From: Tubulanus polymorphus
Lineage: Eukaryota > Nemertea > Palaeonemertea > Tubulaniformes > Tubulanidae
NCBI RefSeq assembly: GCF_964204645.1
Contig: NC_134027.1
Location: 9,164,485 to 9,228,484, forward strand
Direction: 5' to 3'
DNA length: 64,000 nucleotides
Part shown: positions 15,497-42,807 of the stretch, one piece after another
How the letters are laid out: every line of letters starts with the position of its first letter
How positions within the stretch are numbered: the first letter of the stretch is position 1
Notes under the pieces: model-generated
The model's database searches: none
What the model was told of the DNA's origin: nothing
What the model saw: the letters and a program-made list of their open reading frames with translations, nothing else
Made by a program: the position numbers and the translations under genes

Positions 15497-15532
15497 ATAT
15501 AATTCGGGCGTGTGACATAACTATTACTCGTC

Positions 15533-15539
15533 TATAAAC
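15533..15539 (+). promoter_or_regulatory. Candidate TATA box of pseudogene copy C
   Basis: TATAAAC lies 43 bases upstream of the ATG, at the same spacing as in the intact copy. Confidence 0.4.
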
Positions 15540-15575
15540 ACCGAGAAAGTCAGTTGACTGCTGAACGTAGATACC

Positions 15576-16130
15576 ATGGCGCAACCAGGTTAGTTTTTGT
15601 TTTCCAAATTGTGAAATTTTTTATTCATTTTCAAGTTTGAAAAAGTGAGCTGTGTAGTGAATCCGATAATCCCTACAATATTCCATCAAATTTCATTGCA
15701 GACCGCTGCATTTCATTTAGCTTAAGGGCAGGTGTATGTAGTGGGTCAACCGCCAATTCAGTGCCCGGGCCAACCGTATCCACAACAACATCCGTGTGCA
15801 TATTATGGACCTGCAGGAGGAGAGGGAACAGCCACAGTCGTCGTTGGGCAAGGTCCGTTACAAAATCCGGCTCCCGACCATCTTTGCTGGTCGATCATGA
15901 TGATTATCTGTTGATGTTGGCCGCTGGCTATTCCGGCAACGATCAATTCGTGTAATGTCAAACACACCGTCGCCGCGGGAGATCTACCGAGAGCGCAGGC
16001 CGCTTCAAAGAGCTCGAAATACTGGAATGTCGCGGCATTGGTCTTTGGCTTATGTATCCATCTGGGTTGGATGGCTTACGCCATTCTACTCATTTCCATG
16101 TATCAGCGTTCGTTCATGGCCGAATATTAA
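15576..16130 (+). pseudogene. CD225/IFITM-like pseudogene, copy C
   Basis: Keeps the 13-nt first exon (15576-15588), the splice donor GTTAGT, the TTTCATTTAG acceptor and most of exon 2 (from 15721). Two nonsense codons disable it: TAA at the second full codon of exon 2 (15723-15725) and TGA in place of one Cys in the triple-Cys motif (about 15912). Elsewhere the frame is open, including KSSKYWNVAALV and a terminal TAA at 16128-16130. The decay looks fairly recent. It could still be transcribed, because the promoter region is conserved. Confidence 0.88.
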
Positions 16131-16359
16131 TGCTACAATCCGTATTTCTGAGGATTTCTAAGCAATCTGGGACTATAACCAGAAAAGTTATTTAAACCAT
16201 GACCCTAATTTCTGAATTTGGAAATCTTCGCATATTTGAAATATGGAATTTGTTAATATTTCAACTTATATGCAGTGTACTTGATATTACAGTGTTTTAA
16301 TGGACAAACAAATCATATCGCGCGAGCATATGTAGAATGTTAACATGGAATGCTAAAAT

Positions 16360-19569: not shown

Positions 19570-19575
19570 TTTATT
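19570..19575 (-). terminator. Candidate polyadenylation signal of the receptor gene
   Basis: AATAAA on the minus strand, about 160 nt past the stop codon at 19737. Confidence 0.35.
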
Positions 19576-19736: not shown

Positions 19737-20696
19737 CTACACACTCGTCGGATTTGTATATTCGTCTAAACTAATCACGACCCGCTTTCCGTTTATGTTC
19801 GGCGTAGAAGGTACGGAGTCCGTGCACGTAGTTAGTTGGTCTTCAGTCCGAGTTATCACTTCGCACATCGTGGCTATCTTCCGAGCCAGGATCGTGTTGC
19901 CGAACTTTAAGTTCTTTTGTTTCAGTAATTCCAACTTCATATGTATATTAAAAAACTCATCCTGAAATCAGACACAAAAAAATCGAACGAGTTCTAAAAA
20001 TCGTAAGCTTATGTTTATGATGATAGTGATAAATTTTAATAATGATATCAATGATGATAATTGAAAGTGCCCTTCAAAATTTCTTGTCAACAAAGCGTTC
20101 CATGGTGATAATCATGTAACATTCTTTCCGGACCTCTCCCACTAGAGCGATTAGTGACTCGTTTTTGATGGACTAAATGCCCCAGGCGAGGGTCCAGGGA
20201 GTGTTTTGGGTGCTAGAACACCCTTCCTTTCCTTCGTATTATTCATTTTCAGTTTTCCAATGCTAAATTTCAAAGTACACGGTACATTTTGAATCATGAG
20301 ATGAACAAGCAGTGAACAAAAACTCTCGGAACGCGTGAAATTTAGACAAACTTTTCAAAACTTTCTGTAGGATGACCAGGAGAGCACCTCCACTTTGAAA
20401 ATCCTGGATCCGCCCCTGTGCCCCTAGGCAAAAGAAGCTATTTTGCAATCATGCGTGGGCGTGTACCCGAGACTTCGAAATTCGGTTTGAGATACCTGTA
20501 GCTCTTTCTCTATCGAATTGCAGTATTCATGGTCGTCCATTTTTTTATCCGGTGCAGCGCCCGCCGTTGTTACAGTGCTTAGTACGGTAGACGTGGGTAC
20601 GCCTTTCGGAGCTGCCATGTACTTTGAGCCACGGCTGATTGTTGTTTGCGCTTGTTCTTTGTATCTATTTTTATAAACAACATACGCTTGAAAAGC
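19737..20696 (-). other. Receptor exons 12-13: short cytoplasmic tail
   Basis: Exon 12 (20496-20696) starts AFQAYVVYKNRYKEQAQTT, right after TM7, and has a Thr/Ala-rich middle. Exon 13 (19737-19961) starts DEFFNIHMKLELLKQKNLKF, a probable short coiled coil, and ends SLDEYTNPTSV with a TAG stop. No VCPWE-type motif is seen. Confidence 0.85.
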
Positions 20697-23600
20697 CTAC
20701 AATGAACGATAAACAAAAACATGGTTGCAACTTTTACGATTAAATCGAACTGGATAACGGACATTAGCATTAGGAATCCATGGTTCTAATCAACCCTTAT
20801 TTGTCGTTCGGAAGTATGGGGTTCCGGAGGTGACACGGAGAAAATATTTTTCTCGTGGGAATGAAATAATCATTTCGTTCGAACGAAATCAGTTTCGTGG
20901 AGGCAAAATTATTCTTTTTGTGGGAAAGAAATTTTTTCGCCAACCCCGAGAATTTGCCCCTTGAAAAAACATTATGTTATCACTTTATTTCGTTTGACCA
21001 AATGAGAATTATGCAATAATTTGGTCATCTTAATATACATACGAGGTTAGTAACATAGATAGATTCATGAATTTTAGTTAGTCATGAAGTTGGTATGACT
21101 GCCAAATGGCTCTAATCTCCAGAGTAATCTGTTTGACCACCTCAATGGCTACGTGGGGACCTCTGCGGATACGAATTGACTATGATATTGATGAAACACT
21201 ATTCCGTGTTGTAACGATATATAGAAAATCCTACACTCATATAACGGAAAATTAAGTCCGAAAAGTATCCTTTCAGCTATAAATTCATTCATTGATCGAA
21301 CGTTTAGATCATAATCTAATAGTCATCTTCCTGAAGATGACTACGAATTGCCGACGAATAGACTAGCACGTTGTCCATCCTTTGAAAACTATTTGAGAGA
21401 ATTGTTTTGCTCCCACGAAAAAGATTACGTCTGAAAGAAAACATTTCGTTCGTACGAAAAGGTTATTTTGTTCCCACGCAAAAAAAGCTTTTTCGCCATA
21501 TTACCTCCAGGGCTTCGTACGGAAGATACTTAGAATCGCTATATATGAATATATGTACATATAATGTACTTACTTTACTGCCGAATAAGAAGGCTAATGT
21601 GACAGTAGTGGTTAACTGAGTATGCAGGAAGAGCACGAGATAAAGAAGATCTGGATTGGAAGGTGATTGTAAAAATAACCTGAAAATCATTCATAAACAG
21701 TGTTGCAGTTAGTTTTTGCAGGGCGGAAGGAGGAAACATTATTGCACGGGTGATCACAAACTATTGTGTCAAAATGAAATGTAAAAACCCTGGTTTTATA
21801 AACTGGTATTGCCTTTAACCCCAGGGCTAACACAATTGATAATGAATTGAGTTAGCCCCCGGGTTAAATGTAATACCAGTCTATGAAACCTTTTGGGTAA
21901 GGAAACAACCGATAAATACTTTATTTTCTGGGAATCAAACCCAATAAAGCAAATTCTAGTTTACAGCCAGGGTTAATTAAGTGAAAGACCCACAAAAAAC
22001 TAGGAGAATCTGACGGTTCGACTCATATCTATGAGCCTTTTCAAAATCAGATTTTGGTACGACTGCCATACAAATGGCTACATTTCGACTAAGATCTGTG
22101 ATTCTTTCCCAGTTTTTTCGATCTTATTATGGGTTTTTCACTTCATTGATATCAGACAGTCACTTTTCCTGCCAGGGTTAAGTTCCTATTTTCTTAAACT
22201 TTTAGTATAAGCCGCTGATTATAATAAGTTTTGCACTCTGTACCCATAAGGGAGCAAGTTTACTTACATTGATATATTTAAAAATAGCGATAGTAGAAAT
22301 TCGTTATATATAGCCCAGCTTATGAAGCGACTTTCGTTGAATTCCGAAGGAGCTTTTCTAACGACGATACAAAGCCGAATGCCCCATAGTAGCAAAAACA
22401 ATTCCGCTGAAACGACGATAATAAAAAGCGAGTTACTCCGATGAAATATCGTATATTGACGTTGACCCGGAGGGATATTGACTTGGCTGTCACTCTCGCT
22501 CAGTTTCAACACAAATGATGGGCTTCCGCTTCCTGACTGAGGGAAGTATCAGATAACCAAACAAACTTGTGGTTTGTTGCGAGTGCCGCACTGACGGCGT
22601 TACAAGCTTCCCCTAGTGGCTGGTTTTGCAGACGAGATACGAATCCCCCATACGAAGGTATATGGTACGTGGCTTTACCTATTGCGGCGCAGTAATCCCA
22701 TACATCAAATGAGCATTGGAAGGCTTTTAACCCACTGGAATGTTTACCTGCAATGTAAATTCTAAAAAACTAGAACTAGACGTAAACAACGACAATTGTA
22801 ACACGGAAACAACGTTCATTTTTCGATATTGCAACTAAAATCAGGCCGGCGGATCCAGGGTCAAAGGAAAGGGGGTGACTGTCCACTTTCGAAATTTTGG
22901 GCCATTTCTGAGCTCGGCTGCAATTTCGTTGTTCACATACACAATTGTCTTATTTAATTATCCTTTATTCGAAAATTGAATTACGTAAGAATGTGATAAC
23001 AGGATAATGCAACTTAAGTCGGTGTGATTTTTTAGATCTAGATTTTTATTTTGATAAAATAGCAAATTGCCACAAGAAAATGTTGGTATTTTTTCAGTTG
23101 GTCAATCATGATGTTGATCTTTCTTCAGAAAATATTCAGTCCGGAATATTTGAGGATGGAAACTTTAAGGGACCTCGAATTCTAGGGGAGGTGTTCGGTC
23201 CCCGTGGACACTACTGGAACGCCACTGAAATTCCCCTAAAACATCCCCGTTCATTTTCACACTCGTCATTCTTTGCTCGAAGTTCGCAGCGGGCGCATGC
23301 GTCGGCTTACCCTGAATAACCTTCGGTCGGCCGACCACCGTTCTGACGGACATCCACGCACAGAACAGGAACGTTATGAACGCTAATCTCTTTATAAGAT
23401 CGGTGTCCGATATTTTGATGCGCTGCGCCGATTTCACCCTGAATACCATGGAGATTCTACAAAAATGAAAAACGATCGCGGGTGTGTCAAAAGAAAAGAT
23501 TTTCATAGCTTTTGCAGCTGCTATGATGCGGGGTTTTGCGAGAAGCGATTTTCAACTGTAAATATTTTATGTTATAAGTTTTTGCGTGAAGTTTCTCTCT

Positions 23601-26600
23601 TCGAGCACCGGCGGCGGTGGCAGTAGACTTAGCAAAAACTGCGTATAATTCGTCGCCTTTTCTAATTGATGCGGTGGATGCGCGGAAGCCTCCGGAACAG
23701 GTGCAATTCAAGGTGTTTTAGAATTCAGTCTAAATACACAAAATATCAGAAAATACATTCCATCAATTGGAACACTGATAAAAATTTATCATCAACAATT
23801 ATCAAATTATGGATGGCTATCTTTGGATTGTAGGTCTACTAATCATCTATGTTTCTTGAAGCTTATTTTTGAAATAGAAAGAAGACACTTAAACCTATAC
23901 GAAAGAAATCTTTTTCGTCTACGTTGACTTTTACCTCCATGTTTTAAGCAACAAAGCACCATAGGATATTGAAAAGCCTATTTCACGTAACCACAACCGC
24001 AATGAACACGTGATTTCAGTCGGTTCGAAGTAACTAACTATCATCTGAAACGAGAAATCCCGAGAAAAATGCACTTCCAAAAAGTCTAGTGGGATTGCTA
24101 AAAAAATCGACAGAGCTCATTTCTCATTGGACGACTGATTAACAAAAAAACGCAACCAAACTTACCGGACTGTATAAAAGCATCGCTCCTAACAGTATTA
24201 TCTTTAATAAAACTGGACTAGCTGCCTTGAGAACCTGCAAATATAATGTTTATTCGGTAACGACATTTTCTCGAAAGAGGTGTCCAATAATCTAATTCAA
24301 GAAACGTCTGCGTCGCTTGGCACTGCGCAGTTCTGTTTGTCTAGGTGGGCATTTTTTGTTGAGTTGCAACCACCGACTTGAATAACTTAATTATATATAT
24401 CCTGTAGTGCCTAGTTCTGAGAGCAAACGACCAGTTGGTATAGGGGGCCACTTAAAAATCCGATAGAAAATAACAAAATGATAATACATGTGATATCAGG
24501 CTAAGGAAGTTGATACCTTGTTTCTCCAATGCTGAGATTAAAAGTTGACCCGGCCAGCCACCTATCTGCCCTATATATATATATATATAACTTTTTGTGA
24601 TTTTTAGAAAATCATGACCAAGCGAAACAATTACAAACCCAGTATCTATAGAAATGAACTGATTACAAATTTCATTGCGGTTTACAAAAGTTACTCAGCC
24701 GATTAGGAGAAAAAATGCATCATTTTTTATCCTTACTATTCATAAGTTTCGATGATTCATTTGAATGATAAATAGATAAATCTGATATACATAAAACGCC
24801 CAGAAAACACATATTAGAATCGGCTCCGCGGGACCAACATACAGCATCATTCACTTGTCTATAAATCGTTACGTGAAAAGTGCATTTTCCTACATCGTTC
24901 CTTTTTCGTTTGAAATTCCTGTGCGGTGCCCGTTAGAGAGTCGACGTTTCCATGTCGAAGTGTCGACCTGTCAGCAGTCCTACCCACGGCCTTGATTAAT
25001 TACGACCCAAGACCTGTCACTGGTTTTCCGTTTCGACAACAGTGTCAGAAGGCTAATTACGACACGGCGTTGATCCGAGTCGTCTGTCACGTTTGAATCA
25101 GGCGCTTTCTGTTCCAACCCTTACATCTTCGCTCACTAAAATCAGACATGTCCTTCGATGTACTATTTCAAACGGTCCTAGTCAGTCGAAGTCCACGAAG
25201 GCATCAATGCAGAAGAACGATTTTGATTTGTGAGAATGTTTAGGATTAAGGTTAGGGTCAGGGCCAGCAGCCCAGGTGATTCACCACTTAATCCGTCAAT
25301 ATTGTTGAGGGCATCTGACATCGGGGCCTCTGATTCTATGACACCCGCCCTGATCTCTGTTGTGGAAAAATATCGCTGATTAGGCGTAAATTGTGATTTC
25401 TTTATTTTTTTTTGGGGGGGGGGGGAAATCATGTTTTAATGACTTAAACAATTAAATATCCATGAAATAAGTTGATGTTTGAATACATTTTATCTAACTT
25501 CATATAACGTCTGCAGAAATTCAATAGAAGCCATACTCGGAATAACGTATCAGCTTTTTGAGAAGCTGCAATGTATTCTGTCGAAACTTGTTTGAACAAT
25601 TCATCGCTTTGATGCAGCAGTTTCCCGGAAACTTGTCTGCACACGCTATGAGACGACAGACTTAAAAATTGGCCGAATATCAGATTGATATGATGACGAA
25701 ATCAATTTCTGACATCAGGAAATCGTTGCAAATGTCAGGCGTATTTGAGTTACCGCCAAGTAAATATTACAGGACAGTAATTGTATCATGAAGTCAATTA
25801 TATTGTCTCTACGGCGAAGTAACGAAATTATATCTAATTTCATCACGACTCTGCAGAGGAGTTGAACAGACGACCTTCTCGAAACAACATTGGCAAAATT
25901 GGCCAAAAGATAGAATCCCCGATAGATTGAATCCATCTCATTGTCCTTTTAATATTCAAACTGCGATTATAGCGTAAATAATCCTGGGAAATTGGAAAAT
26001 TTCGAATCAACATCGAGGCGGCAAAGCTGGAATTCTTAAACGACGAGTGATATCCTTCGAGACACATATCCAATCGCGTCGATATTTCAATTCACGCTCA
26101 CGCGGTTATTCGCCGGAACAAAACAGTCGGGAACAATGACGTATAATTTGAAACTCGCTAACTAAACAATGCTGTTCAAATCGAGCGAGTTTGTTTCGCT
26201 TCACCCAACGTTACAGAGTATCCTTTCTTAGACATAAATCTGTTAAATTGGCCAATTTCAATTGGGTTCAGAGGACCAAACATTATGTATTTATCTATTC
26301 TCACGATGATAACGAAAGATAGTCATCTTCAGGAATACTGAGGGGGATACCGAACGTATTCGTGAAGATGACTATTAGATTATTAAAGTCGAAAAGTCAA
26401 ATAAACTACCAGCTCAGGGACACATCTTCGGACTTAATTTTTCCGGTATTATTGTGGTATGTTCTTTGCAATATCGTCACATCACGGATATAGTGTTTCA
26501 TGGCTGGTTATTGTGTTTTCTTTTGTTGTAATTAAACTGTAAGGTGAGGCTGACTGTGTGAGAAAAACAATGGACGCCAAGCTAGCTTTATAAAGCTTTG

Positions 26601-29600
26601 TTATATGATCGCTAAATATTGATTGTCACCCTGTCCATTTGATGAATCTTAGAAAGTCTTCCCGACACTTCTTTGAAGTTTTCGATCTTAGTCAAATTGA
26701 TTTAATTTGTCAACGCATTGTAGTTTGATTTCTTTAATAATTGAGCCAGTTTTTACTTTTAGATTTTACAGCACGTTCTGTTACGCATATAGGACAAGCT
26801 GTAACAGTTCTCTTTCTCTGGGATTGGAACAAACATAGCCTTGGAACAAACATGTGCGGGGGCCGGGCAGACTCATTATGAAAATCACGAGGCAATTTTT
26901 AGAATGTCAACCTGATTTTTTAGTTGTTGTTGCGCATCGAGAGGAAATGTCGACTGTTCAGAGGAAAAACTAGCACAGTACAATTTACCAATCATCTATC
27001 ATTCGTCGATATATTTTGTTTCATGGTTAATACTACATGATTGCACGTAATGTCGTAAATAAGGGGCAACTCCTTGGCCCACGTCCAGCAGAAAATATGG
27101 CGCGCATATCCGGTTGCTTGTCGTAAAATTGATGTAAATAATGGATTTTGTAAACGAGGGAAAAGATTTACGTTTACTGTCTGTTTTTATGTCAAGCCGT
27201 AGCTCCGGCGATTATTCTTTCCCCGTGGATTCGCGTCGCTTCCGTCCACCATCGGTCACACGAATTGTCACGTGACGAATGACGTTGATCGATCGTCAGC
27301 GCCTCGGCGGTGTAGACATCCGATGATTCCACCGGGAGAAGATCATCTGTAGTATAATGAACGGCGAGGTGACAATAGGGAACCGCGACCTCAGCTATCC
27401 CGCCAGATGGCGTGACGAGCCACTCAGTCTTGTAAATAGTATGTTGTAGATAACGTTTGTTATCTTTCAAAGTGCTTTTATCTACTGTTTTTGTAAATAA
27501 TTGTAAATACGGTACGGTTTTTCCTCCATATACCATGAGAATGGTTGGAGTGTAATAAATATTCGTATTCGCATTCGTATTCTTGTGTGGTCAAAATTAG
27601 AATCAAAATGAACTTTGAACTGAATTTGTAGGCTCCCGAACCCATATAGGACCCATCATATCGAATTAATTTTCCCTACTCAGATATCTCTTAAGTATTC
27701 ATGAATAATTGAATTATCAAAAAAGTCCATTCAGTTTTAATTGAAATGTGGAAGAAATCGAACGCGAAAGACCGAGTAACAATTAGCGAACCTGGTGGAT
27801 CCTCGCCTGCCATAAGTGGAATTTTCGATCGCCACAGGAGGTCGTGTTCCCAATTTCATCCGGTCACCGGCAAGCGGATGTTTTGTTACTCCAAAGTATA
27901 TAGCATGTGACGGTTTAAAGTTTCATTGTGAGTGAGCAATCTGCAGTTCGATAAGATCTCGGACCATGCGAGTGCTAGATTTGTGATAATGACAAAATCT
28001 GGTAATGAATGGTCTTCTTTTTTATATTGCCTTCATATTGCCTTCATACGGTGGGGCAGCAGCGCAATTCCATTCAATATGCATGTAAAGGGAAATTCTT
28101 TTCAGTTATATCACATTTTTATTTTCCCATCAGACATGTGACTGGTAAGGGGTGTGCCAATAATGAATGAAAACTATTTTATTGGCAGAGAATATTCTGT
28201 ACAGAATATGAAAACAGTGGACCGCATTTACGTCTCCATTGCCCAAAAACGTATGTTTTTTATAAGTAACAAAACAAGAGAAAAAAAGATTGTCCACAGT
28301 ACATTACCTTGATCTCCCTGTAGGCCCAAACGAACCACATAATGACGGGTATACCAGACATCATCGCGCACGTTATTCCCAACAGTATGCTTCTTTGTAG
28401 CCAGTCTAACGATATGATACACGGCGAGTCGTCAACGCATTCGTCGCAACCCAAGGCACACGGAAAACAGTCGAAATATTCCAAGTATCTATTCTCTAAA
28501 TTCTGCAATTATCATTAGCATAAACGATAAGACCAGCCAAATATTATTATTGTTCTGTGTACAATCTTACTCATTAGTTTCGAAATTTGATTATCGGTAT
28601 CTGGAAATATATGCCTCCTATTGTCACTGGATGTTGTGATTAAATAGATACGTACGTTTAAGTACCTGAATAGATACTCAATCTGGATGCATACCTTCGA
28701 GTGCTTTTCGAATTCTATTTCAATTTCGGTTCCGTTAAAATAATCCAAACCGGCAGAAGGGTCAGGAAAGTAGTAACCCATTTTGCAGATGCATTTGTAC
28801 GATCCTCTTCTGAATCCGAGACCAGGCACTGGCTCACACTGAATTGAGAAGAAAAATAATAATAGTAAAAATAATAATGACAATGATAATGATGATAGTA
28901 AAATTTGTATAGCGCGATAATTCCATGCGAAAAAAAGCAAAGTTCAAATGCTCCTCCAGGGTAACGTCGCGGTATGTATGAAATAGTTGAGTTTTGATCA
29001 TGGATCTAAATTCATTCAGCGTCAAATTGAGAACAGTGGGTGTAGAAATCATGGTATTCCAGTAAAATGAAAGGTATGTATTTTTTGAAAAAATGATTTT
29101 GATGTCTATGACTCACATGATGATAGATTCGTAGAGGAGCCTCTACCGGGTGCAGAAAACAACGAGGCGAGTAGTACTTAACTATTTTATTTGACGCACG
29201 AGCTTTCGCTTCTATTAAAGCTACTACCCGGTATACACTAGTTGCGAAAACTCGTGCGTCGAATAAAATAGTTAACCAGTAAAGCACTACTTGTCTCGTT
29301 GTATTCTTGATAATAATTTTAATAATGATAATGATGATGATGATAATAAAAAATGAATTGTCATTATAGCGTAAGGCTCTTTATAAAAGTGGTCAAATGC
29401 GCGCCTCTAGAAATTGTATGTAGCTATCACGGAATAGAACTGTTTTTAGTATCTGCTTGAATGACTCACAAGACACAGACATCGGATCCGGTATGTCCGC
29501 AAGAAGGTTATTCCGCAGTCTAGAATCATATGTGGCGAGTGCTCTAACATCATATGAAGCGGAAAATAGGAACAACCAGACTCTCCTGATTTGAACGTCT

Positions 29601-32600
29601 GACAGGTATATTAATACTTACCATAGTCGTTTCCTTTTTGCACTTCGCCGATCCGGCAAACACATTCGGCGTCGAGTCACCACCTTCGTGAGGGCACTGG
29701 TCGATATCAACCTTCTGCAGGTCGATATCAATACCGCTTGTACCCCTTTTTGAAAAGAAAAGCAACTGAGAATGAGAACAACTTCGACGACTAAGTATTG
29801 AGAATATTTCTGTTGATCTCATTGAAAGGAGCGGGTTTCATAAGGTCACACGAATGAGTATATGCGTCATGCCTAATCATTTCTGCACTATAAGGCGAGT
29901 GCAAATTAGAAAGGAATTATCAAAGTCATATCCGTGGCTCGAAGGCATCTTTTATGCTTCAGCCCGAAATAACACGCTCGATCTGATGTTGGTGCCTATT
30001 TTTATCGCGCTCGTCAAGGAAAGAACATCGTGGAAGTTTTTTTTAACGGCTTCCGTTTTACTAATAAAGCATTCCTCATCAATCACGCGTGGCGGAGAAT
30101 CACCGATCAAATACGAGTCTCTCTCTCTCACACGACTTGGTAAACGTTATAAACAACGCGACGGCCATCGTGAAATGCGCAATAAAAAGGGGACAACATC
30201 ATATCGGCTTCGTTCTAAAGTCTGTCGAATCTATTTCGAGCCGTGAAAACCGGTGATTTGTGAAGCGAAAAGCCGCAACGATGGGTAATAAACTCGACAT
30301 GAAAGAATTACGACAAATAATCTAAATTCCATTAATTCTAACGATAGCGTTTTTCTTTTTTTGTTGAAAACTTCGGAAAGACATCTGAAATCGATTTGTT
30401 GGTTTGGCATTGACACGAACTCTATACTTCTCAGTGTATATCGTGTTTACGTTTTAATGATTGGCCAATTACGATTTCACGTGTGCTTTTCAATAAACAG
30501 ACGAGTTGCGCGTTATTCTTCTAGTTCGGGTAACTTTAGAGAACCAAAGGGGATTGCCGGCATATCGGCTAAACACGCGCGTGTCCCGGTAGAGCTTCAT
30601 TTACTACGTCGTTGATGTTTTTTAATTTGTCGCATCCGACAAGCTGTCATTTCGAGCACGAGCCAGCGTGAAGTTGACGCAATTATGCTCCATCTGCGCC
30701 ACACGCTCGAAATTGCGGTTTGGCGGCGTGTATGGATTTCATCCTTTGTTGTGAAACCGTGTCTTCGATTCATAGAAAAACTCGAACAGATTTTCGTATG
30801 ACTCAAGGCCGAATGGCCGCCCTTAGTTACGATACGTCTTAAAAACTTTTTTGCATAATCGATGAGTTACCGTTGTTGAAGTAATATTTCTAGTGTAATT
30901 TAGAATCATACAGGTCATGGTGGCGTTGAACAGGGATGAACCTTGGGCAACTTATGTCTTTTTTGACGCCGTAAAAAACGTTATTATAATTTTTATATAC
31001 ATGGATACCTAGTATGCACTATTTAAGAGATTCTGTTTGAAGTGAGTGTACTCACTACGTCATCAATATTCGCGTTTCGAAATAACATTTCAATAATGTG
31101 AATTTTGGCGTTCATATTGTTTCCCTTATTTTTGATAAATTTTGAAAATTATTTGAGAGAATGTGTTCTACGCCATCAATATGTTGGGCTAGACTGGTTG
31201 CCGTACAATTCAATTCAATTATCGATACATTCAAATCCAAAATATCTTAATTGATTCTTGATATTATAAAGTGTGTATCTTATTATTCATTGTCGATAAT
31301 ATTAAGCGATATTATTCTTCAAGGCGTCAATAAACTTTTAAGTTAGTTTTCTTTTTTGTATCTGTTTTTGTCAGTCAAACGTCAAACGTCCGTTGTTTTA
31401 CGTTCTGATCATTGGTAGCTTTGTTACTTGTCTTGCTCTGTTACAACCTGTTACAACGGCTGCCGAATCTAAGGAATGTTTTTGTGAACGAACAAAAACA
31501 AATATTTGACTTACTTGAATTTGTAATTCTTATGCGCGTCGTAACCGAAAAACGGAACAGTGTACGTCATCATCCAGATGTTTCCGCCACCGCAGTCGAA
31601 ATAGGGCAAACTCCAGTGACCATCTTCGTAGCGAACGGACAAGCTGACGACCTCTCGCAGAGGACCTTGGTAGGACTCATTCACCCGTAGCAGCTCTTCA
31701 CCTAACAATGAAAATACAAATTGCGGTTTTTTTTAATACGTCAGCACCTTAGTCCCCATAACCTTATGTGCAGGACTTCGTGTCATATTCTATATTCATA
31801 TACTGTTTATTTATTTGACATTACATCTTTAGACAGAATAAGGGTTGAAGCAACCACCCGAAATACTTCTATATTTCAATAAACTTTTCAGTCCTTCAAT
31901 TATTGTGGGAATTTACATCCTGTGATTCTGTATAATATCGTGATGAATCTTTATCAATAACGCTTTCTTCAATTTCTTTTGAGCTATCTTCCTTAGCGCG
32001 GTAGAAGACGGATGGATAACGTTGGATTATATTACCAAGAGCAAAGAAGCCAGAAGCAATACGCGTAAACCAAGTTCTTTCTTTTTGCATCTACTACCTT
32101 CACTTGTTCTCGCGAAGTTGAGAAAGAAAGTTCCGTTACAGTTTTGTTTTTTTGTGATACGTAATTTCTCTAGTCGGATCAAATTGGATAGGTCATTTTA
32201 GTGCCTATCGCTTATAAAAAAGAATATGTGTACTTGTATTCTTTCTTTCACTGTCCCTCTCGCTTATTGGACATAGAATAAAGATCTATATCATCATATA
32301 TATTACTACGATAGTTGTAGTTATTACATCCGAGCTATTTAGCAAATCAAATCCGTTATCAGTTTCAAAAGTTCGGGCTTAAGTTTGTTGCTAATGAAAA
32401 GTTCATTACCGCCTGCTCTTGCCACGAAATGTGATACGAAACGTGATTTTCAATTTTAACGTCCATCGATTACAAATAATTATTCATATCCTAGATGGCG
32501 TGACTATTATCTTTCTATCCACGCATCCGCTGCCGATTCATGTTGTTTATTCGTAAAGCGTTGTTCCGGGGGACACGGTGTCTGAAGCATTCAGTCGTTC

Positions 32601-35600
32601 AATACAATTTTAATCAAACGGAATGAATTCTTCGGTCGGTATTAGATGCACGCAGATAGTCGCTCATGAGGTGTTGGTATCACACGGCAAATTGATAAAC
32701 TCCTCTTAAAGTCACCCCTGGTTAACAATTTTTTCACCACAATTGAAAATACAAAAGTCACCCCATGTCGATAAAATGGACCAAATCAATTCAATGGGCA
32801 TTAGCATCTCTTTGAATTGGATTTTTTAGGCTTTTTGATTCATTTTTCTACTCAGATATCGGTATAGTTCATTAATATAATTGATTTGTTTAAGAAAAAG
32901 TTCATTCAGTTTTAATTGAAATGTTAAAGAACGCGGGCGACCGAGTTACTACTAACGGCCCTGGTGGATCCTCGCCTGCCATACGTGGAATCATCGATTG
33001 CCACAGAAACACTCTATTTTGCCTCACTGGAAATGGCGCCAATGATACAGTGGTTACATTCACGCGGTAGCCTACAATGGCATTCTTATTAGGTCGTAAT
33101 AGGTTTGCCAAGAGATGAATTGACGGGTTGGGAGCAATCGCCTCGTTCGGCTTATCGAAAAGTTCTTTTTCCCATGCATATAGTATACAGAACGCGCCGT
33201 CATAGATCGACGCACAAAGTGATATGCTGGCAACAAGTCTATGGTCAAGCTAATAGCAATAAGTTACGCGGTACAACAGCATCGGGGTTCTTTTTTTGTC
33301 GACCGGACTTGTTTGCCTCACGCTGATTGGGAAATGTAGACAGATTGTTTTTGTGGAGATTTAGTCGGCTATGATGTATCGGCTTGTCAGCGCAGTTACA
33401 GGCGAATCAACGGATAGGATTTGTCAGTGTCGGGCTACTGTAACCGTGATAAAGTAGCCGGCATCTGGCTCGTGTCATCTCTTGCATTGGGTTCTGCTGC
33501 CAAAAGCACGCAGAACGGCGCTGATTTAGTGCTAGATCAGTGCGAATCGAATACGTGTTTTATATCAGCTATCGCAAGGGCATCGTAGCAATAGATTTCA
33601 AGAATCTCTGCCGACGTAGGGACTGTCTAAACTTGACGCCTCGAAGCTTCGTCGGCCTCGGATAGGAACGATAAATGTGATAAAACACGAGGAACAATCA
33701 GTTTGGTGAAATTGTCCGATAAAAATATGTTTACAGGAAGTGCGATAAAAGATGAGGCGGATTCAGTCACAGTTGAATCAGACGATCGTCGTAATACAGC
33801 ATCACACGCGAATCACTGATCAGCAAATGACACACACTTTGGATAACATGCGTTGATTTGATAAAACTTGTGTTGTACCCACTCCAAAAAATAGGTAAAG
33901 GCCGATTTTTCATATTTCAACGAGGTATTTGCGGGCATTATCGCTTTCCGACTGCCATTTCGTCGTGCAAGGATAACGTTCCAAATGTTGTTGGAATGTA
34001 ACTTTTGGATGGGTATGATCAAACCAAGTTAAAAACATAGGCAGTCGCTTGCCGGTTCAGACTGTTTGGATGATCGTTTGAATAAACCGTAACCGAAATT
34101 TATAGTTATGTACTTCGATTTAAACAAAAAATTCTGTAAATTCGACCGCCGATCACACAACTGTACTTCGATTTCCGATTTCAAAATCAGACCCGTTGTT
34201 TTGCTCCCGGCATTTGTGTTGAGTTTGTAAGAGACACCGAATCAAAACAAATCAAACGAAATCTACCGATCTAATAAATAAACGGGTCAATCCCTATTTT
34301 AAGTTTAAAAAAAACAGACTGACAAGGCTAGCAATGCTATTTGGTTGAATTTAGGGTGTAGACCTACTCGAAGTTTTCATACAAATAATGAGCAATTGAA
34401 ATTGTAATTGAATTGTAATTGAAATTGAAATCTATTTTCATTTATAGAATGTTACATTATTGGACGATATTACAAATGTAAAAAAAATGTAACAGGATAT
34501 TGGGGCTATATGGAGAGACTGGAACAGTTTATCTAGGCCGTATCACCCATTCATCGCACTCACGCACCATGCACACAAGTGATAAACAAATGTATAGAAA
34601 CAGAAAATGTTTATACATTTTAAACTTTAATAGAATTTATGAAGAAGGTTTAACGAATTGATATAAGTACGCTTGTAGGCAGGTTCGCTTTGCAATGATC
34701 GAATCGATTCCAAGAGAATATTCCATGAATGTTGATTCTTATCCGTTTTTAGTTCACTGTAGTTCGGGCACTATATAACTAGGATCAACGATCCAATATT
34801 TCAAACGATATTGGACAGTTGATAACCCACTTGGCGGGAATAGGTTCTTTCGATGATAGTTTCATAGAAATTTATAGCCAGCAAAACATCGCCACACTGC
34901 TCGGATGGCTGAGAGATAATCCAAAAAAACACTTATCATGCCAATTTACGAGATCTGATGGGGAATCATTGATTACTGCTTATCTCTATTATGTGAGTAT
35001 CATTGTTATTTCATCACATTTCGCGCCGATATTTTGCTACATCGACGCAGTGATAAATGATTACGCGATGGCCCGACTAACCCCTTGCACCACAACGACG
35101 CGTTAGAAAAATATCATTTGTCCTCGTTAGAAACAATTTCTGATGGAGAAACTATGTATATATGTTTCAGGATCAATGAGTACCGCGCGTATTTCTATTC
35201 GGGTTTCTTGTTACAGAGGGCTTCCTAGACCCTAGATAAATTCCCATTTGTAATTTAAAGTTAAAACTTATCGTGATTTCCCTATTCGAGCTGAACGCAT
35301 TTTCGCATTTTATGGCACTTTTATTGGATCTAAGCCCGTGAGAATAGGCAAGGTATCTCCACGAGTCGAACTCGACTAAGATTTAGACAAATTTTTCCTA
35401 ATGGATTGGTCGAAGTTACCGCAGACGATACGCGACGGCGCTTTGAAATGCGGTCTGGCGGGATATCATGCAAAACTGTGAACGCATCGGTAATTTAATA
35501 ATTCTAATGGATTTGTCCGTGTAAAGACTGAAACGAATTGTTACACAAACCTGTTGCTTGTGAGTCCACCCAGACAAAAAAGGGAAGTCATCGGAACAAT

Positions 35601-38600
35601 AATGGCAAAACCGGAGAGAGCTCTAATATGTACTATATTCCAAAAAATTAGAAGCCGTAGATTCCAAACCATTCATCGTCGTCATCAATATCGTTCGGCT
35701 GCGGGCAGGTGACCAGAATTTTACGTCACTCATTCTTGTCATTGGCACTCCTCGTCGACATCGCCTGTACAAACGGAAGGTAGCGCTGGTGAAACGTGAG
35801 GCGTTGTCGTGCTGGTCTACGCTTCCAAAGGGAGGGTGCATAGAGGCAGTATTTTCTGGCAGGCCCATCGCTTGGCATTCTCAGCAAATGTCCAAAGAAT
35901 GAAAACCACCCAAACCATTATTGTTTGGTATATTTGCAAATAAAGGATTATTGATAATTTGAATGCGTGTTAACATAACTTTACTAGTTGTTTTTTTCTG
36001 CTGGTGGAAGAATTCATAGTACAGATTATCTTGATGAATAAACCTATACGTTTAAGTGGCGCTAGCGTCCTTGGCGTACAAATATTTGCACGACGAGTTT
36101 CTCTGCGGCGATTTGTATCTTTATTCGATTAAATCATTAACTCCTCGGTCTGTACTGTTCTTGTCCGTGTTTTTCATTTAGTGGCCGACTATAAATGTTA
36201 AAGCGATCTGTTTAGCGGCCCGTACTACCTCAATCAGGGCCTTGCCGGCAGATTCGATTACGTACTTTACGCAGAAAGCTAACGAACGAACTATCGGTGG
36301 CAAATGGATTACAAATTAGTAGCGCGGGACAACAACAACTTAGGAACACGTCAGCTAAAATGTCATTTTTCTTCATCGGCTTAGTTCTATCCCAAACGAT
36401 CGCTGAACATCAGAATATCCCTTGTTGTCGTGTGTGTTTGTGCGTTTGTGAAGCATACAGAAATAATCGTCACCCGTTTGCGTTAGCTTAATAACGCATT
36501 AAACATTTTCCGAGAGATGACAAGAAGAAAATCATTCTGTAAATAGTATATTCACAGATACTAATGCAATAGTCTTTCTTCACTGTACATAGTTCGGACA
36601 GGAAGATATATACGATATCAATACGAAAATCAAGTATTTGCCTTTCAAAAAATCTTTTTCGTCAATTTAGTTATTGATCACTGAATCATGAAAAATATTA
36701 TAGGTTCGACATCCGGGTAAATGTGGCATTCCGTAGAATGGACAACCCCGGTAGGCGAGGACGTTGTTGATAATGAGGATGATTTCGGGTGAGATTTCAA
36801 GGAAAGGTGACAAATATCATAGATGATGACCTGCTGGTGAAACCAAAAAGACTGCTGATGGTCGTATATTACACAAATCTATTTCTGAATCTATTTTGAA
36901 TAATTCGCTATATCAGGTACCGCATCATCAAGAAAATTCGGCATTGCATCAGCGTGCACCATGCATAAGCATGCGATGGGTTCGACCTCCACAGGCCTTC
37001 AAAAGTTAAAACGCTCAACGTCAAAGATTTTGATAACTGATCTTTGAACAAATTCTGTTTTGATATTTTATCATAAACTGGAAACACATAAAAAATTTGA
37101 ACCAGTCAATTCTGTTTATTATTTCCAGATACTTTCACAAAATAAGTTAACGTTATAGTGGTCATATCAGGTCAAAGTAGAAAATCAGTTATCGCTGCTT
37201 TGCAGCTATGTTACTTTGATTTGATTTTCCTGATACGAACTGAATAATGTTTGGATGAACTTATACACCCGGCAACATCGAAACTCGGCAGTTAAGAGAG
37301 TTCACTTTCTTACGTTGATGCTGAATCTAGAAAAAGAAATGTTTCTTCATCGATATAGGATCTATGCACGCAGGTCGAGATCCACGTCGTGGGATTCGAG
37401 AGCAAGCCCCTCGAGACTGATTGCCGTAGAGCGTTGAATGAAACCAACGGACAAGTCGTTAATCGTCGATCAATAAGGACATTCAGGAGAATGAAAACGC
37501 TAGTAGCTGCGTAAGTATTATTCTAAGCGTCAATCCAGATTACAGTAATAAATGGGCCTGCTCGGGAATGGGCATATTTTTCATGCAGCATCTCAAGTAT
37601 TTTACAAGCGACAAGAATAGAACTCGGTAATACTGCTGCAACTGAGGACCCATTCACTCACACATAATTCCCCCGTACATTTCATTTTAAGCTAAGCAAT
37701 TACTTTTTAGAAATTCATGAACAGGGCACCTGCTGAAATGATATTCGATGAAGTGTGATCGGCTTCATGATGGGATTGAGATACAACAAGATACATGTCA
37801 TCGAAAACTCTGGAAAATATTCTCACCACTCCGCACATCGATCAAACATGGATTTTCGAATGATTCGAAATTTATTTACGCCGAAAATTCGAAAATCAAA
37901 TCGTTTCTTTTCTAAAGCAATCACATTCTCCGACCCGCGATATCGAAGAAAATCAGATTGATTATTGTTTAAGACTATATCACGATTAAAGTTTCGACGA
38001 ATGAATTCGATGAAATGCATTAATTTTTGAAATTAGATTTTTTTTCGATTATTCTTGCGTGGTAGCAAGGCCTTGGTAATCCAAGGTTGATGATTTGGTA
38101 ACCCATTTTCGTTTCCGTTGCTAAATTTTGCTACCCATTCACAGGCGAGGAGGTCATATCATTCTTGCATGGAAGAAACTCGTTTCTTCACTTCTTGGCC
38201 TTGATAATCTAAGTTTGGTGATTATAAAATGTCGGTTTCTGTTGCGGAGGGTATTCCCGTCAATTTCGATCTGATAAAGTTCATATCTATATTTACTGCA
38301 TGTCTTTGCGCGGTGTTAAATTTCTGTCATAAAACGTGCCTTTTTTCTCGGACGAAATTCCTTGAAATGTACCAGTCACGACACGAGGGTGCAGCGGGCA
38401 TAAGAATTACCGAAATTAGAAAAATTTCGTAGAATAATTCATGAATGAAGTAGATTTTTATTCATTGATATGCATATTATCATCAAGGATAAGACAACAG
38501 GCAAGTTGTGCACACACAGTTTATCGTTCTCGGTGGGTCGCCGTGTTACTGGGCTGTCGTACGCTGCAACTGACTTAACGAGCATATAGAGACTCATAAT

Positions 38601-41600
38601 TCAGCGAAAATGCTATAGAAACGTGTCTCGGGCTTAACGTGGCGAAGGTCGGTTAAGATTTAGGTATCGGCAGCATCACGTGGCTTCTCGGAGAACCACC
38701 ATTTGGGGGGGGGGGCATTCGATTTATGCATGTCATCTGGTCGACAACGCCGCCGTCGAGATAAATTGAAACGTACGTGTCCACCACCGTGAAAAACCGT
38801 GACAAGCGAGACTCTAGATAACAGATAATCTACCACCGGCCGCAGCACGAAAAACTCAATGCCTCATTAATTCTATTAAAAGAACAGCCAGTTGTCGGTT
38901 GCCAGCCGGTTGCCAATCAAAATCATGCAGATTGGCACTGGACAACAACTTTTTGATACTTCCGTTCAGCAGACATACCATATGGAAAAGTTGGTACACC
39001 ATTCGAAAGTTACGCATCTTGGCTTCAAATAATCGATATCCTTTTCTAAGAAAACTGGTGCAATTTCTATGGAAACGGACAACAAGGTACCAAGATACCA
39101 TTATGGTAGTTCTCAAAAAAATTCCAAATTCGTTAGATATATGTATACGATGGGCGAGTGTAAATTTGAGTGGTATCTCCCGATGCGTACGGGGTTTATG
39201 AATCATTTTCCAATTTTACTGACATCAATTCGTCTAAAACTAATAAATAATCAGTTTAAAATCGCCAGTTATTAAATTGCTCTCCATTTACTTCCCCGAA
39301 ATATGATATATATGTACAGATACGTATGAACTAAAAGAGGCTCTATCGCGGCAAGGTAAAACGTACACCCAAGAACCAGTTCCTGTTAATATTAAGTATG
39401 GCACAGTAACTGATAGCGTGAAGGCCGTGGATTTGTTACAATGATTCGCGTTCCTGTTGCCATCAATAAACCTGTGTCCGTTTGGCAAGTGCCAGCGCCG
39501 CACTAATATCCAATTTATTTAATGAACTGAAAACCATTGAATGCCTTCCGTTCGTCGTCGTTGAACACGAAAGTTCGCGTGCTTCCAGACTGACGTCGAA
39601 GAATGTAAAAAAAAAAAAACGTTTTACGAAAACCATCAACTGATGATAACGTTCACGCGGGAAGCCCTGCCCTGCATGTTACGTACTACACTATAAATGG
39701 GTTAAAAACTGAATGCGTCGCAGTTTTATCTCAGCTAGCACCCCCGTCTTGGCGCAACTATGACACAATCTATTCAGTAATCCTATTATGAAGGGAAGAA
39801 ATGTAAATGAATGACAGTCGTTTGCATCGAGGAGTTTTTATGGTTTCTACGGAAACTGATAACGTACGTACACTTTCAATTTTCATAGCGTCGCAAGCTG
39901 GCACATTTATGTTGGCGTGAGCGGAGATACATTGACAATTACATTAATGGCATTCACCCGCTTCCACAATGTTTCCCAGGACCTCTAGGATAAGTTTGAT
40001 GATTCCGGGGCCATATTCCATTCCTCTTCACTACGACCTATGAGAGAATTATCAGTTCAAACAAACAAAAACTGAACCTCATCTGCCGCCTCTTTCCGAA
40101 CTAGGAAAGTTTTTTCGTCGAATAGGATGTGGCTGATGTTGAGTCGCACGCAATCATGTCATAAAACTGGGAATTTGAAATATGGGGCATACGACAGATC
40201 GATGTCGCGCCGAGGTTATGTTGTCGTATAGGTGCCAGAAGATTCTGCCAGACAGTTCAGCGTTTAATCATTTAATCGTCGTCACAAACGAGACGACGTA
40301 TTGCATAAATAACGCGACGAGATAAGCCTGTTGACGACAACGTGCGACGTGTACTGCCGGACTAATTAATACATATTCATTCATTTTTGAAAATTGCATC
40401 ATAAAATGTCGAATTCGTTCGTGAATAAACGAAATCGACATAATAATATCCAATGTCGTAACTATTAATTCTGCAGACACATTTTATATGAATTCGTGGC
40501 ATTATATAATAATTTCGTCATTTTCCCCGGTAGGGATTCGAACATGACGGCGTCGAGACTCGCCCCGGTACGAAACGATGCTACACCAGTCCGAGTGTGC
40601 AGCTACATGCACAACTTAGATGATGCCATTATTAGGCAATCAGAAATACTTCAGCCCGGGTTTTCCATTTAAAGTTCTTCCGTGAAATTTGCCTCGACGA
40701 TTATACAACGAGCAATCTGATTGGTGCCGCAAGTTTTCACGCGGTAAACTTGCTCACTTGGTCTAGTGTGACGGGGTTTGCCGTGGCTGAGTCTAGCGAT
40801 GCCATCGGGTTCGAATCGCCGGTGGGGAGGATGTCATTTCATACAAAGGGACTCATAAGTCTGAATTAAGGCTAATGATACATATTATAATGTGGCTCTA
40901 ACAAATATGGATATATAAAAAATGATATCATACTTTATGGAAGTTGACTGCAGTTCTTGTGCAATTTGAAATGGAATTAAAAAGTTGTTAGTCTCGATGG
41001 ACCCATGGCCAGGGAAATCGGCTGTCTCACACAATACAACTACATTAACTTATACTAGATTCTTTCGTTGTGTGAAAAATACAGGGTTCTTTTCAGTATT
41101 CGAGTGCCATTACGGTATTCAGTTACACTATTTTTCTTCGACTCGTTATTCACCAAAATGTGATATATTGATAAAGAAGTTCTCGATTTTGCTTTTCCGT
41201 TCAGTCATTCGATACTTTACATTTCGGATGCAGCAAACGAAAAGTAGGCACGCGCGGTTGTTTTCAATTAGGCGTAAATACTATAGATTTATACCCGCGA
41301 AGGAAATCATGATAAATGGATTTTTATATTGGTACTCATCAATTCGGCCACGGGTCTCATCGATTAGAGATTACGTTGCGTAACCGGAGCGGGCGGTAAT
41401 TTTTTTCTACTGACCGGGAACGAGGCTCGGATCAAATGTCGAGACATCCGATGATGGATGGTCGGATGATCGAACGGTTCATTGAACGAGGAGCGACTTA
41501 TTTCGCTTTTTTTAGGTTTGAGTGGTACGGCCGATTGAGAGAGGAGAGGCAGTAACACAATAGATTCGGAACAATTCATGCGGTCAATGCGGAAATGTGT

Positions 41601-42807
41601 CCACGTAGAGTGATTGAGGCCGGTCGCATAGTCTAGACCCAAGATAAGACAAAACGGTTGATCCAACGAATTGAAAATCATTGGAATACCTAAACAAAGT
41701 TTCGGACTTATTATTGTTACGTTCTAGAATCTATTACCAAGTCAATCATTGTGGCGTAAACGATATGACAGCCATTTCATGTTACAGCCACGACTCTACA
41801 CGACAGCGGTATTTCTGCCTTCAAAGATGTGTCTCTTGCACGAAATTTGAATTTTGCGTATGAAATACGTCGATCGAACCGTGAAATTTATATGTCAAAA
41901 ACGAGACAAAAAGTCGGCAGAGTTTGTAATCACCTCAAAATGGCGGTGTCATTTCATGGGTAATCTTAAAACTGACCGTCAATTTGTCATCTGGGGAGGT
42001 TTAGGGTGCAACACAGTACAGGCGCCATGAGATCGCTGATACGGTGAATGGAATTAGAATCAGTCTTTTAAAGCCTTTGATATTTCGATCGTATTGAATA
42101 TCTTTAGCATTGGAGATAATGCTGCTGTTCGACGGATAGATGAAGATATGTCACGCCACCAGACACGCCTGGGGTCACGTGCGTACGGTTACGAAAGAAC
42201 GATAAATCCACTTACCAATTGTCAGGTTGGATCTCGATAAGGTGTTGCCTTTCTTTCGCGCCTGGTAGAACCATTCGGAATCGTTCTTCAAGTATTTGTA
42301 TTCGATGGACAAGTCTTTCACCATAATCTGTCCGTTCGGCAGACGATAAGCGTACGGGCAAAACAGTGTGTAATCCTTGAACTCTTTGTAGTCGTAGCAA
42401 TTTCCGGCCGCGAATATATCATCGTCCCCTTCGACCATATTGCGCACGTACGTATAGAATAGGTATTCGTTGTTAAGAACACTAGGTGGCGCTCCGATCC
42501 ATATCCGTGTGAGTAGATTGGCGCGATTGACCGCGGTGAGAGCCTGGCGTTTGAATCGGCGCACGCCATATTGTTGCACGACACCGTCGCCGAGGTTGAA
42601 CCCGGTACCGGTCGTGCAATTCTCTTTGGTCTGTTCGTAACGTTCGACCAGATTGAGAAACCTGGTGACGATGTCCAAATTGGACGCTCTCGACGTGGTC
42701 ATTTCACCGTTTTGATGCGGGAAAATATATTCGCTATCATCTTCGTTGTAAGAAGCGAACCGCGCCGTCGTGAACATTGTCATCAACGTCATTAACAATA
42801 CCTGCAT
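19737..42807 (-). CDS. GPR158: GPR158/GPR179-family class C receptor (metabotropic glycine receptor-like)
   Basis: Thirteen exons: 42216-42807, 31515-31701, 29622-29745, 28695-28838, 28308-28502, 24166-24234, 23935-24044, 23311-23456, 22679-22747, 22268-22406, 21574-21679, 20496-20696 and 19737-19961. All are GT-AG; phases after each are 1, 2, 0, 0, 0, 0, 2, 1, 1, 2, 0, 0, and 2307 nt gives 768 residues plus stop. Order: signal peptide, Cache-like ligand domain, EGF-like Cys-rich segment, seven membrane helices, short tail. Family signatures include FDCGGGNIWMMTYTVPFFG, IDQCPHEGG, LGFRRGSYKCICKMGYYFP, LEYFDCFPCALGCDEC, ITCSLRLWLREIGFSISYG, RVKSAQRIKISDTDL, NEFLLSLF and LFLHTQLTTTVTLAFLFGSK. 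Human GPR158 binds glycine and signals through RGS7-Gbeta5, with a long tail carrying VCPWE motifs. Here the tail is only about 140 residues and no such motif is present. Whether it belongs with GPR158 or GPR179 cannot be decided by eye. Confidence 0.93.
20263..20415 (-). repeat. Repeat with GGCGGATCCAGG end
   Basis: On the minus strand it starts CAGGGGCGGATCCAGGATTT and runs into a GCTCTCCTGGTCATCCT block. The end is shared with 5640-5915 and 22850-22935. Intronic. Confidence 0.5.
20825..21515. repeat. Foldback element with about 110-bp inverted arms
   Basis: The left arm (20830-20955) with CTCGTGGGAATGAAATAAT and CATTTCGTTCGAACGAAAT is repeated inverted at 21385-21515 (GTTCCCACG, CATTTCGTTCGTACGAAAAG). 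The inner part holds another small palindrome around GTCATCTTCCTGAAGATGAC (21323-21342). It lies in the intron between receptor exons 11 and 12. Confidence 0.7.
21785..21897. repeat. Long hairpin, 47-bp arms
   Basis: Left arm 21785-21831 and right arm 21851-21897 pair with a few mismatches around a 19-base loop. The arms include AACTGGTATTGCCTTTAACC and its inverse. In transcripts this would form a strong stem; most likely it is a small MITE. Confidence 0.8.
21955..22190. repeat. Inverted-repeat element beside the hairpin
   Basis: The left block GTGAAAGACCCACAAAAAAC recurs inverted as GTTTTTTCG-TTATGGGTTTTTCAC near 22112-22145. A related piece with AGATTCTCTCCTAGTTGTTT is at 55038-55145. Confidence 0.6.
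24490..24735 (+). repeat. Dispersed repeat family P, copy 1
   Basis: Shares GTTGATACCTTGT, GACCCGGCCAGCC and the block GAACTGATTACAAATTTCAT with 57565-57760. It lies in the large intron between receptor exons 5 and 6. Confidence 0.65.
26310..26525. repeat. Foldback family E, copy 1
   Basis: Contains ATAGTCATCTTCAGGAATAC and its inverse GAAGATGACTATTAGATTAT, then CACGGATATAGTGTTTCA. It is related to 58855-59030 and to the core of 20825-21515. Confidence 0.65.
27655..27850 (+). repeat. Dispersed repeat family W, copy 1
   Basis: Contains GTCCATTCAGTTTTAATTGA and CCTGGTGGATCCTCGCCTGC, shared almost exactly with 32830-33015 and, inverted and more diverged, with 56330-56480. Confidence 0.75.
28855..29060 (-). 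repeat. SINE-like repeat with AT-rich triplet tail, copy 1
   Basis: A run of AATAATAATG-type triplets, a TATAGCGC motif, then a body with TTGAGTTTTGATCATGGATC and ATCATGGTATTCCAG. A similar order (triplets, TTTATAAAAGTGGTCAAATG, body, GGTTATTCCG) is found at 29285-29580. This looks like a decayed short interspersed element; class uncertain. Confidence 0.5.
29285..29580 (-). repeat. SINE-like repeat with AT-rich triplet tail, copy 2
   Basis: Second copy of the element described at 28855-29060. The two lie in the same receptor intron, in the same orientation. Its body ends close to the donor of receptor exon 3. Confidence 0.5.
30955..31355 (-). repeat. MITE family T, longer copy
   Basis: Starts TTTTTTGACGCCGTAAAAAA, has CTCACTACGTCATCAATATT and GTGAATTTTGGCGTT, and ends AAGGCGTCAATAAAC plus AAGTTAGTTTTCTT. 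The two TTTGACGCC ends face each other, as terminal inverted repeats should. Confidence 0.7.
31515..31701 (-). other. Receptor exon 2: C-terminal part of the Cache-like domain
   Basis: Residues 198-259. It contains LREVVSLSVRYEDGHWSLP, the FDCGGGNIW strand and TYTVPFFGYDAH, the best match to the ligand domain of the GPR158 family. The donor is GTAAGT at 31514. It lies 10.5 kb from exon 1 and 1.8 kb from exon 3. Confidence 0.92.
32830..33015 (+). repeat. Dispersed repeat family W, copy 2
   Basis: TTCATTCAGTTTTAATTGAA and CCTGGTGGATCCTCGCCTGC match 27655-27850, with the same spacing and an ACCGAGT block between them. Confidence 0.75.
34105..34310 (-). repeat. Dispersed repeat family D, copy 3 (reverse)
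   Basis: AATTCGACCGCCGATCACAC and AATCAAAACAAATCAAACG followed by AAATCTACC are the reverse complement of blocks in 5000-5165. Confidence 0.7.
38045..38245 (+). repeat. Imperfect local duplication
   Basis: TTCTTGCGTGGTAGCAAGGCCTTGGTAATCCAAGGTTGATGATT-type sequence at 38052-38095 recurs with changes at 38162-38225 (TTCTTGCATGG, CTTGGCCTTGATAATCTAAG). Intronic. Confidence 0.45.
40525..40840. repeat. MITE family B with tRNA B-box-like inverted ends, copy 1
   Basis: Left end GGGATTCGAACATGACGGCG, right end the near inverse around GATGCCATCGGGTTCGAATC then GGTGGGGAGGATG. The interior shares GAGCAATCTGATTGGTGCCG with 55980-56290 and more loosely with 51725-52040. No frame. Confidence 0.75.
42216..42807 (-). 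other. Receptor exon 1: signal peptide and first part of the Cache-like domain
   Basis: Residues 1-197. It starts with the hydrophobic MQVLLMTLMTMFTTARFASY. Then come a basic site VRRFKRQ, the segment ANLLTRIWIGAPPSV and the Cache-type YVRNMVEGDDDIFAAGNCYD. Three NxS/T sites are visible (NCT, NDS, NLT). A strong GTAAGT donor (42215) ends the exon; the open frame runs on another 13 codons into the intron. The start is the only Met with a signal-like sequence. Confidence 0.88.

Follow-up and report, generated by a model that had tools for sequence, protein, structure and literature searches.

Does a GPR158-like receptor with a short cytoplasmic tail represent a glycine-sensing core that stands without a scaffold, or can scaffolding be traced in such a tail? 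This question is raised by a receptor gene (gene A, minus strand, 42807 to 19737) in a window of 64,000 nucleotides from Tubulanus polymorphus, the whole stretch of DNA that was analysed and the one to which positions refer unless another contig is named. Gene A was compared with its paralogs elsewhere in the same genome (B, C, D1 and D2) and with human GPR158 and GPR179. It is an ordinary member of the GPR158/GPR179 family with one twist: what is found in common with the human receptors is the RGS-docking helix, seen in paralog B, and not the grip on glycine that we take human GPR158 to have.

Gene A encodes a class C receptor that belongs to the GPR158/GPR179 (mGlyR) family and is composed of a Cache domain, an EGF-like stalk and a seven-transmembrane (7TM) region, and the ligand domain, Cys-rich stalk and seven helices described in the first-pass annotation are confirmed by Pfam, by PDB scores and by the tree. 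Three Pfam families exceed their curated cut-offs, namely 7tm_3 (150 bits, residues 385-627), GPR158_179_EC (122 bits, residues 226-324) and the Cache-type MCP-like_PDC_1 (51 bits, residues 207-271), and a PDB search (best 60 of 70 sequences at E <= 0.01) ranks GPR158 first with 260 bits (E = 2.5e-76), GPR179 second with 228 and GABA-B2 next with 47, a similarity well above anything that chance would give. A placement outside the GPR158/GPR179 clade had been named beforehand as evidence against the assignment; in a tree of 13 7TM rows (A, B, C, the human pair and the eight best other class C receptors of the genome), gene A lies inside, as A, B, C and the human pair form one clade (100/100) against the eight others. 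The ionic lock K502-E609-K666 of human GPR158 corresponds to K471-E570-K627 in gene A and is retained in A, B and C, and a lock mutant of GPR158, E609H, gives cyclic AMP as in cells lacking GPR158 (PMC8611064). The KxxR motif is present as K471/R474, C450-C534 is the counterpart of the C481-C573 disulfide, and dimer-interface W578 is retained as W539. Layer II is mostly retained in gene A (R457, Y465, E547, E581, S585, H611 and T615, with N589 at human H628).

When the genome (268 Mb, 77 contigs) was searched with GPR158_179_EC, 18 matches had E <= 1, and the 10 over the cut-off (one of them only together with its neighbours) fall in four places, which are gene A and three loci on contig C1.

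C1:26904515-26922200 (26.90-26.92 Mb), strand not stated: paralog B, GPR158_179_EC match, spliced alignment.
C1:2.57 Mb, strand not stated: paralog C, GPR158_179_EC match, spliced alignment.
C1:4668505-4675680 (4.67 Mb), strand not stated: paralog D, probably two tandem genes, D1 and D2.

Spliced alignment supplied the models of B, C and D, and the tail exons of B and C were picked by eye from splice sites. Both D1 and D2 have EGF-type exons and D2 additionally has a Cache domain; no 7tm_3 match lies at this locus among the 51 genome matches listed, and the two are possibly soluble or decayed GPR158-like relatives. Within the 13-row tree, B joins human GPR158/GPR179 at 91/97, which is short of the program's star. 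Topology tests rejected both a group of A with B alone (p-AU 0.017) and a group of A with the human receptors without B (p-AU 0.017), leaving unrejected A with C (p 0.49) and A, B and C as one clade (p 0.35), and a tree built from the EGF and 7TM regions of the five family members alone paired A with C at 98/95. Because of these supports and tests, B is, as judged from the sequences, the nearer relative of GPR158/GPR179, with A and C as a side branch, and gene A does not qualify as the one-to-one counterpart of GPR158/GPR179.

Past K627 the tail of gene A comprises 141 residues in two exons (12 and 13), and six-frame reading of the whole window contains no VCPW, CPWE or VC[PA]WE, in agreement with the tail of about 140 residues without a VCPWE-type motif that had been described. 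In human GPR158 the VCPWE motif controls how the receptor interacts with Go (PMC9027133). By our models the tail of B is split between two exons that join in phase 0, as in gene A, and is 159 residues long, and the tail of C has about 72. Since the sister receptor B is also short-tailed, the tail is, contrary to what had been claimed, not unusually short within this genome, and the two-exon short tail looks like the common form here on the modelled sequences. Human GPR158 has a tail of about 550 residues, and that of human GPR179 is very long; no comparison of tail lengths among invertebrate GPR158 relatives was found in the open-licence papers searched.

The tail of B, which reads MDPEDIR and then AELKRLYTQLQIYKTKTMRKDNPH, matches human LDPEDIRDELKKLYAQLEIYKRKKMITNNPH, with E = 1e-9 against the RGS7-docking region of GPR158 and E = 4e-9 against that of GPR179. 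This match falls inside residues 665-775 of GPR158, a fragment sufficient for RGS7-G-beta-5 binding (PMC8611064). Because the short tail of B retains the docking helix, a short tail is, on sequence grounds, not equivalent to lost scaffolding, and the notion of a form reduced to the receptor core is not upheld; gene A itself may have a weak version of this helix, placed in register with that of B.

19860..19961, minus strand: possible diverged counterpart of the RGS7-docking helix (DEFFNIHMKLELLKQKNLKF...), starting at the exon 12/13 junction, as in B.

Local alignment of the gene A tail scored 54 against the GPR179 helix (reached by none of 2000 shuffles) and 48 against the GPR158 helix (reached by 2 of 2000), with the register of B and the human receptors and likewise a phase-0 exon junction. 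When the register was fixed at that junction over 28 residues, the scores for B, GPR158 and GPR179 were reached by 0 of 20000 shuffles each, and when the hydrophobic pattern was held, by 110, 14 and 10 of 20000, respectively. A six-frame search of the window returned exon 13 as the top site for both human helices (E = 0.067 for GPR158 and 0.013 for GPR179). Gene A possibly holds a weak, diverged counterpart of the docking helix, for which binding is uncertain. The tail of paralog C shows no helix (1597-1884 of 2000 shuffles being as good), nor was a credible one seen in about 8 kb of sequence inspected downstream, and the helix search found no credible docking helix in paralog D. The genome also carries an RGS7-type DHEX piece at C1:5.97 Mb (135 bits to human RGS7 and 49 to RGS9) and a second DHEX piece on C4 (36 bits).

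On the ligand side, pocket positions were compared in four genes (A, B, C and D2), with profile and MAFFT alignments in agreement, against S172, R173, E271 and D307 of human GPR158, which we take to be the glycine contacts.

42409..42414, minus strand: F132-A133, aligned to human GPR158 S172-R173 by the profile and MAFFT alignments.

The S172/R173 positions are occupied by F/A in A and D2 and by F/G in B and C; elsewhere they are F/G in the bacterial structure 3lic and Y/R in GPR179, the latter in a weak stretch (6.8 bits). At the E271/D307 positions, gene A has D233/D266, B and C have D/D, and D2 has K/T. The mapping of contact residues proposed in the first-pass annotation accordingly divides in gene A: two of the presumed contacts are retained as acidic residues (D233 and D266) and two are not (F132 and A133). 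The amino-acid motif dCache_1AA of PctA consists of Y121, R126, W128, Y129, Y144 and D173, of which R126 binds the carboxylate (PMC10104139). For human GPR158, a structure with glycine bound does not exist according to PMC12834959. At the PctA positions, placed by spacing and motif only, gene A has Y172, S177, W179, F180, Y231 and D266, and it falls short of the full motif with S177 at the R126 position and F180 at the Y129 position. The pocket of gene A appears to keep its acidic, amine-side positions and not the carboxylate side; R155, invariant in the four genes, could be an alternative anchor. The four-gene profile matches the GPR158 Cache domain at E = 1e-18. Because the helix is strong in B and the presumed contacts S172/R173 are absent from A, B, C and D2, conservation in this one genome looks better for RGS docking than for the glycine pocket, the reverse of the earlier suggestion that glycine sensing preceded scaffolding, which found no support.

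We consider it fairly probable that gene A encodes a GPR158/GPR179-family class C receptor on a side branch with C, with B closer to the human pair, and that it acts as a ligand-tuned RGS holder whose short tail is the common form, the human extension being separate. Under this proposal the receptor would most likely be a cell-surface dimer, its Cache domain would sense a small amine-bearing ligand, and the 7TM face together with the short tail helix would keep a complex of an R7-type RGS and G-beta-5 close to the membrane. The ligand would thereby alter the speed at which G-alpha-i/o is switched off, and the human tails, which are longer by several hundred residues, would owe this length to a separate extension. 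The proposal draws directly on the gene structure, the family, the tail length at the DNA level, the K471-E570-K627 lock, the DHEX piece, the B helix and the weak counterpart in A; expression, dimerisation, RGS binding by gene A, ligand class and the direction of tail change we infer.

A number of observations weigh against it. Within the 7TM region, D540 alone of layer I is retained in gene A (R485 -> L, R631 -> M, Y647 -> L), dimer-interface F540 is W508, and ion-network H628 is N589. For the helix, the local score of the gene A tail against B is 35 (reached by 226 of 2000 shuffles), a three-helix profile yields 2.3 bits (of 2000 shuffles made, 1381 were scored and 38 did as well), and a plain PDB search with the gene A helix returned no match at E <= 10. 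The B helix found no match at E <= 1 in the six-frame search of the window, and, in the same six-frame test, chance alone produced E = 0.013 at the C locus, on its wrong strand. The common form of the short tail, moreover, rests on three modelled genes in one genome, and a passage of one review places GPR158 in vertebrates only (PMC9027133).

A variant that we regard as tentative and clearly behind this proposal takes RGS7 docking to be old and conserved and the glycine-type pocket to have come later; gene A would then be a divergent sensor of another amine ligand with a weakened RGS hold, the short helix tail would be ancestral, and the long Go-trapping tail would be a later addition. Slightly less plausible again is that gene A is a diverging paralog that lost RGS docking through decay of the helix and now couples to G proteins in the ordinary way or works alongside B, as its partner or its decoy. 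The marginal helix similarity in gene A, the absence of a credible helix from C in the roughly 8 kb downstream, and D1 and D2 as ectodomain exons without a 7TM match all agree with such a history, but 13 of 13 exon frames are open in gene A and its lock and layer-II residues are retained. The original picture of a core without scaffolding, in which ancestral glycine sensing is retained and tails were added later in vertebrates, we judge improbable. It accounts for the short tail of gene A without VCPWE and for the retained acidic pocket positions (human E271 -> D233 and D307 -> D266), yet it is opposed by the RGS7-docking helix in the short tail of B, perhaps with a diverged form in A, and by the pocket itself, where the S172/R173 positions read F/A (A), F/G (B and C) and F/A (D2) and the PctA R126 position is S177.

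The gene model on which these readings are based has 13 exons on the minus strand from 42807 to 19737, totalling 2307 bases (768 codons plus stop), and the earlier count of 13 in-frame exons and 768 residues is upheld by 12 of 12 GT-AG introns, fitting phases and exact ends at 19737 and 42807. The frame opens at 42840, with a stop codon in frame 11 codons before the ATG.

42216..42807, minus strand: exon 1, start codon, N-terminus and first part of the Cache domain (residues 1-198).
31515..31701, minus strand: exon 2, remaining Cache domain, including WSLPYFDC and TYTVPF (residues 198-260).
29622..29745, minus strand: exon 3, last Cache strand (D266) and start of the EGF-like stalk (residues 260-301).
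28695..28838, minus strand: exon 4, EGF-like stalk (residues 302-349).
28308..28502, minus strand: exon 5, last Cys-rich loop and transmembrane helix (TM) 1 (residues 350-414).
24166..24234, minus strand: exon 6, TM2 (residues 415-437).
23935..24044, minus strand: exon 7, TM3, with K471 and R474 of the KxxR motif (residues 438-474).
23311..23456, minus strand: exon 8, intracellular loop (ICL) 2 and TM4 (residues 474-523).
22679..22747, minus strand: exon 9, extracellular loop 2, with C534, the expected disulfide partner of TM3 C450 (residues 523-546).
22268..22406, minus strand: exon 10, TM5, ICL3 (E570) and start of TM6 (residues 546-592).
21574..21679, minus strand: exon 11, TM6-TM7, up to K627 (residues 592-627).
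20496..20696, minus strand: exon 12, proximal tail linker (residues 628-694).
19737..19961, minus strand: exon 13, distal tail and stop (residues 695-768).
19570..19575, minus strand: AATAAA poly(A) signal, 161 bases past the stop and the first AATAAA there.

Exons 6, 9, 10 and 11 have weak codon-usage scores (0.06, 0.02, 0.07 and -0.04, against 0.19 for the whole coding sequence, on which the score itself was trained, and 0.11 and 0.07 for the best intron frames); these exons nonetheless encode conserved 7TM residues. Judged from the DNA, the short tail seems complete, with an AATAAA so soon after the stop and no VCPWE-like frame anywhere in the window. It is highly improbable that the model is incomplete and that an alternative or further 3' exon supplies a long tail: the structure is known from DNA alone, and read-through at the exon 12 donor leads to a different end, again short (23 residues, frame 20427-20696), but the position of the AATAAA, the same-strand frames between the stop and the next gene on that strand (the longest being 115 and 101 residues) and the identical two-exon arrangement of the B tail all speak against it. 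Two candidate exons were rejected, namely a long downstream tail exon, for which the 115-residue frame (15276-15620) is mostly TA repeat, and an alternative last exon in intron 1 (41690-41367, minus strand, 108 residues, acceptor in phase with exon 1), which was judged a chance frame, with a codon score of 0.04 (best intron 0.11, coding-sequence mean 0.19) and no Pfam hit.

Elsewhere in gene A, a stretch seen by eye, TATGGCAGGCGAGGATCCACCAGG, occurs on the minus strand in both 27781-27840 (intron 5) and 32941-33000 (intron 1) and is perhaps a mobile-element remnant. The next same-strand gene past the receptor stop is a GH3-family frame (12705-14012, minus strand, 176 bits), a family best known from plants. 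The window also contains CUB-like exon frames at 256-6580 on the minus strand, perhaps of one long gene (two of three scanned frames match CUB, with 31 and 42 bits), and a CD225/dispanin-like gene at 8667-9155 on the plus strand (84 bits). Frames resembling the latter lie near 10198-10512 and 15641-16160, with no Pfam match for either scanned frame.

An invertebrate member of this family is not new, because relatives have already been named in a liver fluke (PMC6114109) and, with low support, in a sponge (PMC4302439), the Drosophila relative being smog (PMC6778782) and that of C. elegans F39B2.8 (PMC11488851, PMC10728192). The combined Cache-EGF-7TM design is considered a stem-animal innovation (PMC12716839). 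A search of bacterial contigs found 80 stretches fitting the pattern, one of which was confirmed, on a Bacteroidales contig and for residues 221-275 only. Glycine has been proposed as a possible C. elegans transmitter, partly on account of the worm GPR158 ortholog (PMC11488851); if the residues with which the vertebrate receptor grips the carboxylate are absent from invertebrate members, orthology alone would not predict glycine sensing. Moreover, A (weak helix), B (strong helix) and C (none seen), which share the same 7TM lock, form a natural series on the contribution of the tail helix, and paralog B is better suited than gene A to the question of ancestral scaffolding.

Compared with known systems, Drosophila smog and C. 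elegans F39B2.8 are relatives of GPR158 by published naming. The bacterial dCache sensor 3lic resembles the Cache domain of gene A taken alone (38 bits, against 33 for GPR158), whereas under the four-gene profile GPR158 leads by 71 to 65 bits, and the sensor is a bacterial protein without a 7TM region. Human GPR158 shares with gene A the Cache domain, the EGF-like stalk and the 7TM region (35% identity over 253 7TM residues), as well as the C481-C573 pair, KxxR and the K502-E609-K666 lock; it differs in its tail (about 550 residues against 141), and gene A lacks VCPWE and S172/R173 and has at most a weak docking helix. Human GPR179 has the same architecture and 35% 7TM identity and gives the best tail-helix match (score 54), but its tail is very long and it seemingly retains the R173 position (VYRALLTF, in a weak alignment stretch), which gene A does not. 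Paralog B resembles gene A in architecture and in its two-exon short tail, with 40% 7TM identity, and differs in retaining the human-type docking helix and in standing nearer to the human pair than gene A does.

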